NCBI RefSeq assembly: GCF_000240165.1
Contig: NC_017586.1
Location: 3,162,001-3,226,000 of the forward strand
Source: Streptantibioticus cattleyicolor NRRL 8057 = DSM 46488
GTDB lineage: Bacteria; Actinomycetota; Actinomycetes; Streptomycetales; Streptomycetaceae
Reading direction: 5' to 3'
DNA length: 64,000 bases
The translations under genes and the position numbers were made by a program. The notes beneath the pieces are model-generated. The model was not told the origin of the DNA. It worked only from the letters and a program-made list of their open reading frames with translations, and ran no database searches. Below are positions 9,023 to 58,442 of this stretch, one piece after another (within the stretch, counting starts at the first letter, position 1; the number at the start of each line of letters is the position of its first letter).

Positions 9023-10251
9023 TGGCCGGTCAGGAGATCACGCGCAGGCGGCTGCTGGGTACCGCGGGGGCGGCGGGGGCGGCCGGACTGGTGGCCGGCG
9101 GCGCGGGCGGCGCGCTGGGGTACGCGGCGGCCGGTACCGGCGGTCCCGCGCTGACCTCGGTGGGCACCGGCGCCGTACCGTTCCACGGCACCCACCAGGC
9201 CGGAATCACCACGCCGTTGCAGGCATGCGGTCATCTGATCGCGTTCGACCTGGCGACCGGGGCGGGCCGCAAGGAGGCCGCGGCGTTGCTGCGCCGCTGG
9301 TCGGCGGCGGCGGAGGCGATGACGCAGGGACGGCCGCCGGCGGGCGACAACCAGGTGGCGCTGGACGCGGGGCCGGCGTCGCTGACGGTGACGTTCGGTT
9401 TCGGGCGGTCGTTCTTCGCCCGGACCGGGCTCACCGACCGGATCCCGGCGGCGTTCCAGCCGCTCCCGGCGTTCTCCTCCGACGCGCTCGACCCCCGGCG
9501 CAGCGACGGCGACCTGTGGGCGCAGATCGGGGCCGACGACGCGCTGGTCGCCTTCCACGCGCTGCGGGTGCTCCAGAAGGAGGCGGCGGGCACGGCCCGG
9601 GTGCGCTGGCAGATGAACGGCTTCAACCGCACCCCGGGCGCCACCGCGCGGCCGATGACCGCCCGCAACCTGATGGGCCAGGTGGACGGCACCAACAACC
9701 CCAAGCCGGCCGACCCCGACTTCGCCGCGAAGGTCTTCGTCCCGGACCAGGGCGGCGACGAGGCGTGGCTCAACGGCGGTTCGTACGCGGTCGTGCGGCG
9801 GATCCGGATGCTGCTGGACGACTGGGAGCGGCTGCCGCTCGACCGGCAGGAGGCGGTCATAGGCCGCCGCAAGTCCGACGGCGCCCCGCTGTCCGGGGGC
9901 ACCGAGACGACCCCGGTCGACCTGGGCAGGTTCAACCCGGACGGTTCGCTGGCGATCCCCGGGGACGCCCACGTCCGGGTGGCCGCCCCGGCGTCCAACG
10001 GCGGGGCCGCGATGCTGCGCCGCCCGTTCTCGTACCACGACGGCTACGACGCGGACGGCACGCCCGACGCCGGGCTGCTCTTCGTGTGCTGGCAGGCCGA
10101 TCCGGGCAACGGCTTCGTCAAGGTGCAGCGCAAGCTCGACCGCGGGGACGGCCTGTCGCGCTTCATCCGCCACGAGTCGAGCGCGCTCTTCGCGGTGCCG
10201 GGCGGTTGCGGGAAGGGCGAGTACGTGGGGCAGCGGTTGCTGGAGTCGTGA
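9022..10251 (+). CDS. dtpA: Tat-exported dye-decolorizing peroxidase, copper-cluster type (DtpA-like)
   Basis: A 409-residue heme peroxidase. ATG 9022 overlaps the copCD stop. The N-terminus has a Tat signal (ITRRRLLG followed by an Ala/Gly core), so it is exported folded. DyP hallmarks are GFGRSFF, the distal GxxDG motif as QVDGTNN with catalytic Asp, and a likely proximal heme His in GDAHVRVA. In S. lividans the DyP gene linked to sco and ecuC, dtpA, is needed for maturation of the copper oxidase GlxA. The same neighbourhood here argues for the same function rather than iron uptake. A second, EfeB-type DyP is encoded at 18485-19780. Confidence 0.92.
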   Translation: MAGQEITRRRLLGTAGAAGAAGLVAGGAGGALGYAAAGTGGPALTSVGTGAVPFHGTHQAGITTPLQACGHLIAFDLATGAGRKEAAALLRRWSAAAEAMTQGRPPAGDNQVALDAGPASLTVTFGFGRSFFARTGLTDRIPAAFQPLPAFSSDALDPRRSDGDLWAQIGADDALVAFHALRVLQKEAAGTARVRWQMNGFNRTPGATARPMTARNLMGQVDGTNNPKPADPDFAAKVFVPDQGGDEAWLNGGSYAVVRRIRMLLDDWERLPLDRQEAVIGRRKSDGAPLSGGTETTPVDLGRFNPDGSLAIPGDAHVRVAAPASNGGAAMLRRPFSYHDGYDADGTPDAGLLFVCWQADPGNGFVKVQRKLDRGDGLSRFIRHESSALFAVPGGCGKGEYVGQRLLES

Positions 10252-10315
10252 GGGCGGGCGGGGTCGCCGCACGGCCCCGGCGTACCGCCCGCCCCGGGGC
10301 CGTCCGCACGGCCAT

Positions 10316-10327
10316 TAGGCTGACGTC
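10316..10327 (+). promoter_or_regulatory. -10 element of pheA, leaderless arrangement
   Basis: TAGGCT at 10316-10321 is followed by 6 nt and then ATG 10328, so transcription would begin at or next to the start codon. No Shine-Dalgarno sequence is present, in keeping with a leaderless mRNA. Confidence 0.5.
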
Positions 10328-11260
10328 ATGACCTCGCCCTCCGCGCGTTATACGTATCTGGGCCCCGAGGGGACGTTCACCGAGGCGGCGTTGCGGACGT
10401 TGCCCGAGGCGGCGACCCGGGAGCTGGTGCCGATGGTGTCCGTGCCGGCCGCGTTCGACGCGGTGCGCGGCGGGGAGGCGGAGGGCGCCTTCGCGGCGAT
10501 CGAGAACTCGGTGGAGGGCGGGGTCAACGCGACCCTGGACGAGCTGGCCACCGGGGCGCCGCTGATGATCTACCGCGAGGTGCTGCTGCCGATCGCCTTC
10601 GCGCTGCTGGCCCGGCCCGGCACCAGGCTCTCCGACGTCAAGACGGTCACCGGCCACCCGGTGGCCCAGGCTCAGGTGCGCGGCTGGCTCGCGGCCAACC
10701 TGCCGGACGCGGTCTGGGAGTCGGCGGCCTCCAACGCCGACGGGGCCCGGCTGGTGCAGGAGGGCCGGTTCGACGCGGCGTTCGCCGGCGAGTTCGCCGC
10801 CGCGCGGTACGGGCTGGAGCCGCTCGCCACCGAGGTGCACGACAACGCGCACGCGCAGACCCGGTTCGTCCTCGTCGGGCGGCCGGGCCGGCCCGCCGCG
10901 CCGACCGGGGCGGACAAGACCTCGGCGGTGCTGTGGCTGCGCGAGGACCACCCGGGCGCCCTGCTCGAACTGCTCCAGGAGTTCGCGGTGCGCGGCGTCA
11001 ACCTGCTGCGCATCGAGTCCCGCCCGACCGGGGTCGGCATGGGGCGCTACTGCTTCTCGGTGGACGCCGAGGGGCACATCACCGACCGCAGGGTGGGCGA
11101 GGCGCTGATGGGGCTGAAGCGGATCTGCCCGCAGGTGCGGTTCCTCGGCTCCTACCCGAGGGCCGACGAGACGGCGCCGCAGGTGCGCGCCGGCACGTCG
11201 GACGGGGAGTTCGCGGCGGCGGCGGACTGGCTCGCCCGGGCGATGGACGGCCGCGTCTGA
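10328..11260 (+). CDS. pheA: Prephenate dehydratase
   Basis: Converts prephenate to phenylpyruvate in phenylalanine synthesis. The 310-residue protein is the stand-alone actinobacterial form with no chorismate mutase part. The PDT domain (about 6-185) starts YLGPEGTFTEAA and contains AAIENSVEGGVNATLD. The catalytic Thr-Arg-Phe triplet is in AQTRFVLVG (about 178). The ACT domain (about 200-275) carries the phenylalanine-binding ESRP motif (NLLRIESRPTG) and predicts feedback inhibition. The start at ATG 10328 fits a leaderless promoter. The gene is followed by the DnaA-box cluster and then serS. Confidence 0.96.
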   Translation: MTSPSARYTYLGPEGTFTEAALRTLPEAATRELVPMVSVPAAFDAVRGGEAEGAFAAIENSVEGGVNATLDELATGAPLMIYREVLLPIAFALLARPGTRLSDVKTVTGHPVAQAQVRGWLAANLPDAVWESAASNADGARLVQEGRFDAAFAGEFAAARYGLEPLATEVHDNAHAQTRFVLVGRPGRPAAPTGADKTSAVLWLREDHPGALLELLQEFAVRGVNLLRIESRPTGVGMGRYCFSVDAEGHITDRRVGEALMGLKRICPQVRFLGSYPRADETAPQVRAGTSDGEFAAAADWLARAMDGRV

Positions 11261-11294
11261 CCGGTCGCATCCGGCCGAACGTACACCCCCGGCC

Positions 11295-11638
11295 GCGTCC
11301 ACAGTTTTCCACCGAGTTATCCACAGGCTCTCGTGGAGACCTGGGGACAAGTCGACAAGCCAGCCGCCCCCAGACCGTGATCTAGTCGACAAATCGGTCT
11401 GTTGCCTCCGAGCCGTCCACAGCGCCGCACTCCATCATCCGTCACCCCAATTACGTCGATCAACTCCATAGAGGGAACGAGAAGGCGCACTTCTCACCCG
11501 AATGGGACCTCTGGCAATGTTTGAAACCGGAATTACACATCACTCTCCCGGGAAAGCGGAATGATCAACTCCGTCTTCCACAGCCCACCCCCACACCCTG
11601 TGGACAACGGCCCGGGAGCCTCGGCTCCCTGTGGATAA
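11295..11638. other. Cluster of DnaA boxes between pheA and serS
   Basis: The pheA-serS gap (11261-11831) is AT-richer than its surroundings and holds three exact TTNTCCACA boxes: TTATCCACA at 11317-11325 (+), TTGTCCACA at 11599-11607 (-) and TTATCCACA at 11630-11638 (-). Near matches are TTTTCCACC at 11305-11313, TTGTCCCCA at 11342-11350 (-), CCGTCCACA at 11413-11421, TCTTCCACA at 11574-11582 and GCGTCCACA at 11295-11303. Clusters like this outside oriC titrate DnaA in S. coelicolor (H69, H24 and D78 are described). I see no dnaA or dnaN here, so this is not oriC itself. No convincing coding frame lies in the gap. Confidence 0.65.
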
Positions 11639-11819
11639 CCTGCGCCGACACCCGGCTCGACGGCCGGTTTCGCGGGCCGAAAATGCAACTCCGGAGGGCG
11701 ATGCCGTTAAATTCGGTTGACGGGCAGTGGGGGTCGCCGATTATTTCTTCCGTTTCCCAGAAACGGACATTTGCCAGCAAACTCGACTTATTTTGTCGCG
11801 GCCGGAGGCGGCCTGCCGG

Positions 11820-11831
11820 TAGCCTGTAGCC
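11820..11831 (+). promoter_or_regulatory. -10 element of serS, leaderless arrangement
   Basis: TAGCCT at 11820-11825 lies 6 nt before GTG 11832, and there is no ribosome-binding site. The -35 region is weak. I saw no T-box specifier structure or antiterminator upstream. Confidence 0.45.
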
Positions 11832-13109
11832 GTGATCGACCTTCGCCTGCTTCGTGAGGACCCCGACCGAGTGCGCGCCTCCCAGCGCGCCCGTGGAGAG
11901 GACGTCGGCCTGGTCGACGCCCTGCTCTCCGCCGACGAGCGGCGCAGGTCGTCCAGTCACCGCTTCGACGAACTGCGCGCGGAGCAGAAGGCGCTGGGCA
12001 AGCTCATCCCCAAGGCCGCCGGCGAGGAGAAGGCCGGGCTGCTGAAGAAGGCCGGCGAGCTGTCCGCCGCGGTCAAGGCCGCCGACGCCGAGCAGAACCT
12101 GGCGGCCGAGGAGGCCCAGGCCCTGCTGCTGCGCATCGGCAACCTCGTCCACCCGAACGTGCCGGTCGGCGGCGAGGAGGACTTCACCGTCCTGGAGACC
12201 GTCGGCACCCCGCGCGACTTCGCCGCCGAGGGCTTCGAGCCCAAGGACCACCTGGAGCTCGGCCAGGCACTCGGCGCCATCGACGTCGAGCGCGCCGCCA
12301 AGGTCTCCGGCTCGCGCTTCTACTACCTCACCGGTGTCGGCGCCCTGCTGGAGCTGGCCCTGGTCAACGCGGCGATCGCGCAGGCCACCGAGGCCGGCTT
12401 CACCCCGATGCTCACCCCCGCGCTGGTCAAGCCGCGCGCCATGGAGGGCACCGGCTTCCTCGGCCAGGCCGCGGAGAACGTCTACCACCTGGAGAAGGAC
12501 GACTACTACCTGGTCGGCACCTCCGAGGTCCCGCTGGCCGCCTACCACATGGACGAGATCGTCGAGGCGGCCAGGCTCCCGCTGCGCTACGCCGGTTTCT
12601 CGCCCTGCTTCCGCCGGGAGGCCGGCACCTACGGCAAGGACACCCGAGGCATCTTCCGCGTCCACCAGTTCGACAAGGTGGAGATGTTCTGCTTCGTCGC
12701 CCCCGAGGAGGCCGAGGCGGAGCACCAGCGGCTGCTGGCCTGGGAGAAGCAGTGGCTCGGCGCGCTGGGGCTGCCGTTCCAGGTGATCGACGTGGCCACC
12801 GGCGACCTGGGCGCCTCCGCCTCGCGCAAGTTCGACTGCGAGGCGTGGATCCCCACCCAGGGCAAGTACCGCGAGCTGACCTCGGCCTCCAACTGCGACG
12901 AGTTCCAGGCCCGGCGGCTGTCGGTGCGGATGCGGGACGAGCGGGGCACCCGTCCGCTGGCCACGCTCAACGGCACCCTGTGCGCCGTGCCGCGCACCAT
13001 CGTGGCGATCCTGGAGAACCACCAGCAGGCGGACGGCTCCGTGGTCGTCCCCGAGGTGCTCCGCCCCTACCTGGGCGGGCGCGAGGTGCTGGAGCCGGTC
13101 GCCAAGTGA
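11832..13109 (+). CDS. serS: Seryl-tRNA synthetase
   Basis: Charges tRNA-Ser (and tRNA-Sec where present). The 425-residue class II synthetase begins [18 protein letters not shown], the typical SerRS N-terminus. It has the long antiparallel coiled-coil tRNA-binding arm at about residues 30-105, then the catalytic core. Visible class II motifs are motif 2 ([18 protein letters not shown]) and motif 3 ([15 protein letters not shown]). [10 protein letters not shown] and [15 protein letters not shown] are SerRS signatures. GTG 11832 is the start and follows a leaderless-type promoter. Its TGA overlaps the next GTG (GTGA), coupling it to the HAD phosphatase. Confidence 0.97.
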
Positions 13110-13897
13110 CCTACCGGCTGATAGCCACCGACCTGGACGGCACCCTGCTCCGCGGCGACCACACGGTCTCCGCCCGTACCCGGCGGGCGCTCGCCACGGC
13201 CACCGCGGCCGGCGCCGACCACATCGTGGTCACCGGCCGCCCGGCCTCCCGCACCCTGCACATCTTCGACGCGCTGGACTACCAGGGGCTGGCGGTGTGC
13301 GGGCAGGGTGCCCAGGTCTACCACGCGGGGGAACGGCGGCTGCTGACCTCGGTGACCCTCGACCGCCAGGTGGCCGCGCTCGCCCTGGAGAAGATCGAGT
13401 CCGAGGTCGGCCGGCTCGCGGTCGCCGCCACCCGCGACGGGGTGGACGGCGCCTTCCTGGTCGAGCCCGGCTACCGGTTCGTCGCCGAACTGCCGGTCAC
13501 CACGGCGCACGAGCGCGAGCGGTTGTGGGAGGAGCCGATCGGCAAGATCTTCCTCCAGCACCCCACGCTGACCGACGACGCCCTGGCCACCGCCGCCGAG
13601 GTGGCGGTCGGCGGCCTGGTGGGCGTGGTGATGGCCGGCGAGGGGCTGGTCGAGCTGCTGCCGCTCGGCCTGTCCAAGGCCACCGGCCTGTCGCTGGCCG
13701 CCCGCCGCCTCGGCCGTACCGCGGCCACCACGATCGCCTTCGGCGACATGCCCAACGACATCCCGATGTTCCGCTGGGCCGCCCACGGCGTGGCGATGGC
13801 CGGCGCCCACCCCGACCTCAAGGCGGTCGCCGACGAGGTGACGGCGGGCAACGAGGAGGACGGCGTGGCGGCCGTGCTGGAACGCCTCTACGGGTGA
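13106..13897 (+). CDS. Cof-type HAD-family phosphatase
   Basis: A 263-residue member of the Cof/YbhA subfamily of haloacid dehalogenase phosphatases, which hydrolyse small phosphorylated metabolites such as sugar phosphates or flavin and pyridoxal phosphates. Motif I is DLDGTLL near the N-terminus, motif II VVTGRP, motif III the Lys in GLSKATGL, and motif [13 protein letters not shown]. The C2-type cap sits between them (about residues 80-190). GTG 13106 overlaps the serS stop, so the pair is an operon, as in other streptomycetes. The substrate cannot be told from sequence. Confidence 0.9.
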
Positions 13898-57870: not shown

Positions 57871-57914
57871 TTGGCCACAGTCGGGTTCAGGCTGTGGACA
57901 AACGGTTCTCCACA
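57871..57914. other. DnaA boxes in the bkdA2-bkdR intergenic region
   Basis: TTGTCCACA on the minus strand at 57893-57901 and TTCTCCACA at 57906-57914 (+) match TTNTCCACA exactly. TTGGCCACA at 57871-57879 differs at one base. They lie within 45 bp and immediately upstream of the regulator gene. Confidence 0.55.
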
Positions 57915-57959
57915 GCCTGTCATGGAGGCAGTACGTCCATGGTAGGGAGGCCCGGGGGG

Positions 57960-58442
57960 ATGGCGACTGAACATATGGCCGAGCCTGACCTGCCCGTTCG
58001 TCCGCTGGACGCCATCGACCGGGCCATCCTGCGGCTGCTCCAGGAGGACGGCCGGGCCTCGATACGGTCCGTGGCCGACCGGGTGCACATATCCCGCGCC
58101 AACGCCTACGCGCGGATCAACCGGCTCATCGACGACGGCGTGATCCGCGGTTTCACCGCCCGCGTCGACCACGAAAGAGCAGGTCAGTCTGCGTCCGCCT
58201 ACATCACGCTGAAGATCGTCCAGAACTCCTGGCGCACGGTTCGGGACAAACTCCTCACTCTTCCGGGTGTTTCTCACATCGCGTTGGTGAGCGGCGACTT
58301 CGACGTGCTGCTCCTTGTCCACACGGCCGACAACCGCAGCCTGCGCGAACTGGTGCTCACCCGGATCCAGTCCATGGAGGAGGTGCTGAGCAGCCGGACG
58401 CTGCTGGTGTTCGAGGAGACCGACCGCGCGCTCCAGGAATGA
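57960..58442 (+). CDS. bkdR: Lrp/AsnC-family regulator BkdR
   Basis: A 160-residue leucine-responsive-type regulator. The helix-turn-helix (about 15-65) includes DAIDRAILRLLQEDGRASIRS and VHISRANAYARINRL. The C-terminal RAM/AsnC effector domain covers about 75-155. ATG 57960 is chosen for GGGAGG upstream; ATG 57975 is an alternative. It is divergent from the second bkd operon, and in S. coelicolor and S. avermitilis a regulator in this position (bkdR) controls the bkd genes. It converges with the TetR gene across a hairpin terminator. Confidence 0.9.
   Translation: MATEHMAEPDLPVRPLDAIDRAILRLLQEDGRASIRSVADRVHISRANAYARINRLIDDGVIRGFTARVDHERAGQSASAYITLKIVQNSWRTVRDKLLTLPGVSHIALVSGDFDVLLLVHTADNRSLRELVLTRIQSMEEVLSSRTLLVFEETDRALQE

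Follow-up and report, generated by a model that had tools for sequence, protein, structure and literature searches.

Box searches and a family alignment support the view that the gap between pheA and serS of Streptantibioticus cattleyicolor NRRL 8057 (positions 11261..11831 of the window, i.e., of the whole 64,000-nucleotide stretch of DNA analyzed here) is a deeply conserved, origin-proximal cluster of DnaA boxes. This gap is very probably the orthologue of the D78 cluster of Streptomyces coelicolor, and as such would be a non-coding DnaA-binding locus near the origin, one that restrains replication initiation. Newly reported here are the near-invariance of the boxes at 11317 and 11599, the absence of the cluster from two deep-branching genera and from the loci sampled outside Streptomycetaceae, and a helical phasing of its two halves. 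How origins are counted against DnaA is unsettled beyond a few model species, and the setting here is a multi-genomic bacterium with a linear chromosome, whose development is responsive to replication control.

Content of the pheA-serS gap

The gap is 571 bp long and lies between pheA on the left (prephenate dehydratase, 10328..11260, plus strand, Pfam PDT and ACT domains; closest named pheA from Streptantibioticus ferralitis, 87%) and serS on the right (seryl-tRNA synthetase, 11832..13109, plus strand, Pfam Seryl_tRNA_N and tRNA-synt_2b). A sequence-only reading had described it as an AT-richer gap with three exact DnaA boxes and several weaker ones, and this description held: its GC content is 61%, against ~66-79% per 2 kb in the surrounding window, and exact TTNTCCACA boxes were found at 11317-11325 (plus strand, TTATCCACA), 11599-11607 (minus strand, TTGTCCACA) and 11630-11638 (minus strand, TTATCCACA). 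The form TTGTCCACA is listed as the DnaA box consensus for S. coelicolor (PMC4285127). Across the aligned Streptomycetaceae gaps, the first box serves as an anchor, being exact in 131 out of 131, the second is exact in 95%, and the third is exact in 76% and located 29-33 bp from the preceding one.

The weaker boxes include three with one mismatch (11305, 11342 and 11574) and others with two (11295, 11332, 11350, 11383/11384 and 11413), but only some of them stand as conserved sites. The inverted box TTGTCCCCA (11342-11350, minus strand) is within one mismatch of the consensus in 87% of the family, and TCTTCCACA (11574..11582, plus strand) is so in 50% and within two mismatches in 95%, whereas 11295 and the box TTTTCCACC (11305..11313, plus strand) are poorly conserved at their exact columns; many relatives have an exact box 12-13 bp ahead of the 11317 anchor. 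The inverted weak box is itself enclosed in a conserved 20-mer, GACCTGGGGACAAGTCGACA (11338..11357, plus strand), which, allowing up to two mismatches, occurs once per genome in 67 of 150 family genomes.

Some conserved blocks of the gap are not DnaA boxes. The family alignment revealed paired AGTCGACAA elements (11350-11358 and 11384-11392), whose spacing across the family is mostly 22 bp and otherwise 13, 32-35 or 43-44 bp, i.e., roughly helical steps. At 11441..11536, a stretch of moderate conservation without boxes (GTCACCCCAATT..TCGATCAACTC .. GTTTGAA..GGAAT) is a possible site for another protein. Further on, the alignment shows a conserved GGTAGCCT (11818..11825, plus strand), a probable -10 element of serS that lies so close to the GTG start that the serS mRNA may be leaderless. 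Searches of the gap also returned one sigma-70-like site (11717-11744), a single one-mismatch match to the AdpA consensus (11661, outside the box core), no terminator-like site and no parS (GTTTCACGTGAAAC), and no Rfam family matched in 10200-13200. Between 3.0 and 3.4 Mb, most parS sites were found within C2:3263237-3348315 (C2 being the contig that holds the window).

Enrichment and conservation of the boxes

A first-order Markov model of the gap, drawn 20,000 times, gave one exact box in 263 sequences, two in 1 and three in none. Genome-wide, 76 exact boxes were counted in 8.1 Mb (30 for a reversed-pattern control), with 26 of the 76 gathered within 225 kb around oriC/dnaA where 2.1 are expected. 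With uniform placement of 76 sites, a triple inside 500 bp would arise anywhere with p = 0.0006, and at least three exact boxes per 500 bp were found in just five places, all on contig C2 and at most ~111 kb from dnaA: the pheA-serS gap, 3219893, 3257933, 3282904 (oriC, beside dnaA) and 3319108. The gap thus holds what a D78-type locus should hold, namely an above-chance cluster of consensus boxes outside oriC.

Conservation of these boxes is extensive. In each of the 80 named loci of the genome collection, the pheA-serS gap contains two or more exact boxes, usually arranged as one forward box and, ~260-280 bp on, a pair of reverse boxes 30 bp apart. Close relatives without the boxes would speak against such a site, but when this was checked the boxes were found to be kept across the 131 aligned family gaps. 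An accumulation of boxes by chance, for which one might point to the single exact boxes found elsewhere in the genome, was discarded as practically negligible, since it is opposed by the null models and by the family-wide conservation, the latter being already enough to refute it.

Outside Streptomycetaceae, no exact box was seen downstream of pheA in the sampled actinobacterial loci, even with serS adjacent. In two deep-branching genera of the family (g2 and g5), serS lies 2.6-3.7 kb from pheA (four genomes with both genes placed), and the stretch read downstream of pheA contained no cluster. With no cluster seen in these genera or in the other families sampled, a single gain inside Streptomycetaceae is the most parsimonious interpretation.

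Position relative to oriC

With dnaA at C2:3283860-3284345, the cluster is located ~110 kb from dnaA, in line with the oriC-proximal location proposed from the sequence alone and with the origin-proximal position of a D78-type locus. The distance from pheA to dnaA is ~80-109 kb in ten other genomes, or ~80-111 kb over all 11 measured. The orientation of dnaA relative to pheA is, however, opposite in S. cattleyicolor to that in the compared genomes, and DNA comparison with three other Streptomyces genomes delineated an inverted segment of ~205 kb (~3176 kb to ~3381 kb) with oriC inside. One of its breakpoints falls just downstream of serS, so that the window from ~14000 onward belongs to the inverted segment, and the cluster, just outside this breakpoint, has changed sides relative to oriC while keeping a similar distance.

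This position also bears on the idea that several DnaA boxes inside an AT-richer gap might mark a secondary replication origin. The cluster shares its box consensus with the Streptomyces oriC, but the latter is located between dnaA and dnaN, neither of which adjoins the cluster, and boxes of the oriC type have their usual place beside dnaA, ~110 kb away. A secondary origin is highly improbable, and was discarded on these positional grounds.

Probable correspondence with D78 of Streptomyces coelicolor

Smulczyk-Krawczyszyn et al. reportedly described, in 2006, three DnaA-box clusters of S. coelicolor outside oriC, named H69, H24 and D78. Of these, D78 is reportedly the strongest; its affinity for DnaA is said to exceed that of oriC, and its deletion to raise the origin-to-end ratio (over-initiation). 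We take SCO3961 and SCO3962 to be located on cosmid D78. SCO3961 is serS, for which a 28-mer, AGGCCACCCTTCGTCCACCTGTTTCTTG, is printed in a paper on ScbR targets (PMC4595836), and SCO3962 is pheA (PMC6585502). In one genome of our collection (G390, 8.63 Mb), an exact match to this 28-mer falls inside the pheA-serS gap, among five exact boxes, more than in any other cluster within 200 kb of dnaA/oriC. The S. cattleyicolor cluster is orthologous to that of G390, in the SCO3961/SCO3962 gap.

The next clusters of G390 flank oriC, a four-box one at 32 kb and, in the other direction, a pair of boxes at 35 kb, and both have counterparts in the other genomes examined; in S. cattleyicolor, the counterpart of the four-box cluster adjoins a rhomboid gene and that of the pair a MatE transporter gene. 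This layout, with two clusters to one side of oriC and a single one to the other, agrees with the published H69, H24 and D78, and gene order and rank likewise seem to fit D78. Together, the five-box gap, its rank and the flanking clusters indicate that the pheA-serS gap is very probably the D78 orthologue, which supports the earlier suggestion of a counterpart to one of the S. coelicolor clusters and points to D78 as that one. Both are origin-proximal, non-oriC clusters of high-consensus boxes, but they differ in genus, in the number of exact boxes (three here, five in the S. coelicolor-like genome) and in the side of oriC, the present cluster being on the opposite one, ~110 kb away, owing to the ~205-kb inversion.

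Two other conserved clusters outside oriC, at C2:3257933-3258050 (L015:17933-18050) and C2:3319108-3319196 (L018:19108-19196), are candidates for the counterparts of H69 and H24. The former resembles the pheA-serS cluster in that a strong forward box precedes a weak, inverted GGGGANAAG-like one.

Helical phasing of the two halves

Within the family, the spacing from forward to reverse boxes takes mainly values of 257-261, 267-271, 278-282, 290 and 301-302 bp, i.e., it varies in ~10.5-bp helical steps, with the halves ~25 helical turns apart. We scored this phasing as the mean of cos(2 pi d/10.5) over spacing changes of 4-36 bp on the serS tree. For the box-to-box interval, the mean cosine was 0.47 over the tree changes (n=25; p = 0.001 vs. 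control) and 0.57 over independent pairs on disjoint paths (n=19; p = 0.0003 vs. control, p = 0.0001 vs. uniform), these p-values being optimistic because the control is partly double counted and because the spacings had already been inspected when the period and size range were set. The control, made up of intergenic gaps elsewhere in these loci, gave 0.085 for 149 pooled changes, of which some are counted twice since two gaps entered under both reference genomes. Neither the distance from pheA to the forward box (p = 0.27, no phasing beyond control) nor the whole length of the pheA-serS gap (0.09, unphased) displayed this pattern, which was limited to the box-to-box interval.

This suggests that the two halves act together on one helix face, and favors an ordered DnaA complex over a passive sink, which needs no shared helix face. 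It is tempting to go further and propose that the D78-type locus works as a stereospecific nucleoprotein device, gained once in Streptomycetaceae, with its halves held on the same face and a loop that maybe reaches the serS promoter, a combination that we regard as a real but tentative possibility. As part of this proposal, the loop may be closed by DnaA, with or without a partner on the conserved non-box stretch. If a phased complex holds true across Streptomycetaceae, a passive DnaA sponge and an ordered regulatory complex could be told apart by half-to-half spacing.

Possible modes of action

The best-supported reading of the cluster makes it a negative regulator of initiation of the D78 type, with DnaA binding predicted from the box consensus. 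Under this reading, DnaA would bind cooperatively to the forward half (11305-11358) and the reverse half (11574-11638), so that both would come to share one face of the helix within a looped or wrapped complex. Owing to its closeness to oriC, the locus would be duplicated soon after each initiation, and the duplicated locus would take up DnaA in its free (or ATP-bound) form and thereby delay the following round. Titration may be one mode of action among several, and conservation alone cannot separate it from catalysis of ATP hydrolysis or from regulation of serS.

Restraint of initiation by DnaA-box clusters has precedents. Reviews citing Smulczyk-Krawczyszyn (2006) present the S. coelicolor clusters as analogues of datA that repress untimely initiation, and the clusters of Bacillus subtilis, which the present one resembles by this description, are likewise reported to repress untimely initiation (Okumura, 2012, as cited in PMC5742627). 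The datA locus of Escherichia coli is alike in outline, as a DnaA-box cluster away from oriC restraining initiation, but it has an IHF-type site between boxes and acts through DnaA-ATP hydrolysis, whereas the pheA-serS cluster has a moderately conserved non-box stretch and other neighbor genes. Within the D78 reading, a datA-like mode in which ATP hydrolysis by DnaA is promoted with a nucleoid protein between the halves would agree with the two box groups around this stretch, with their helical phasing and with the analogy drawn in these reviews; it is nevertheless rather doubtful, as both the bridging protein and an IHF-type site in the cluster are hypothetical.

Alternatively, the boxes might mainly serve a DnaA-dependent regulation of the serS promoter, tying tRNA charging to the replication state, with secondary effects on replication. 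Wherever the cluster was found, it precedes serS; the serS -10 element is conserved, and the interval between the reverse boxes and this element tends to change by near-multiples of 10.5 bp, a phasing that is suggestive (p = 0.0004 for tree changes, 0.053 for independent pairs). Yet the last box is ~180 bp ahead of the -10 element, the distance from cluster to promoter ranges widely (79-325 bp) whereas box-to-box geometry is tight, and other actinobacterial families have adjacent pheA and serS without boxes, all of which makes this alternative unlikely.

Other DnaA boxes in the window

Two exact DnaA boxes in inverted orientation lie 13 bp apart at 57893-57914, either at the beginning of an ORF resembling an Lrp/AsnC-type regulator (57894-58442) or just upstream of it, and the same 13-bp pair was found in two other genomes. 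Two further exact boxes, 18 bp apart and apparently intergenic, are located at 1059-1085.
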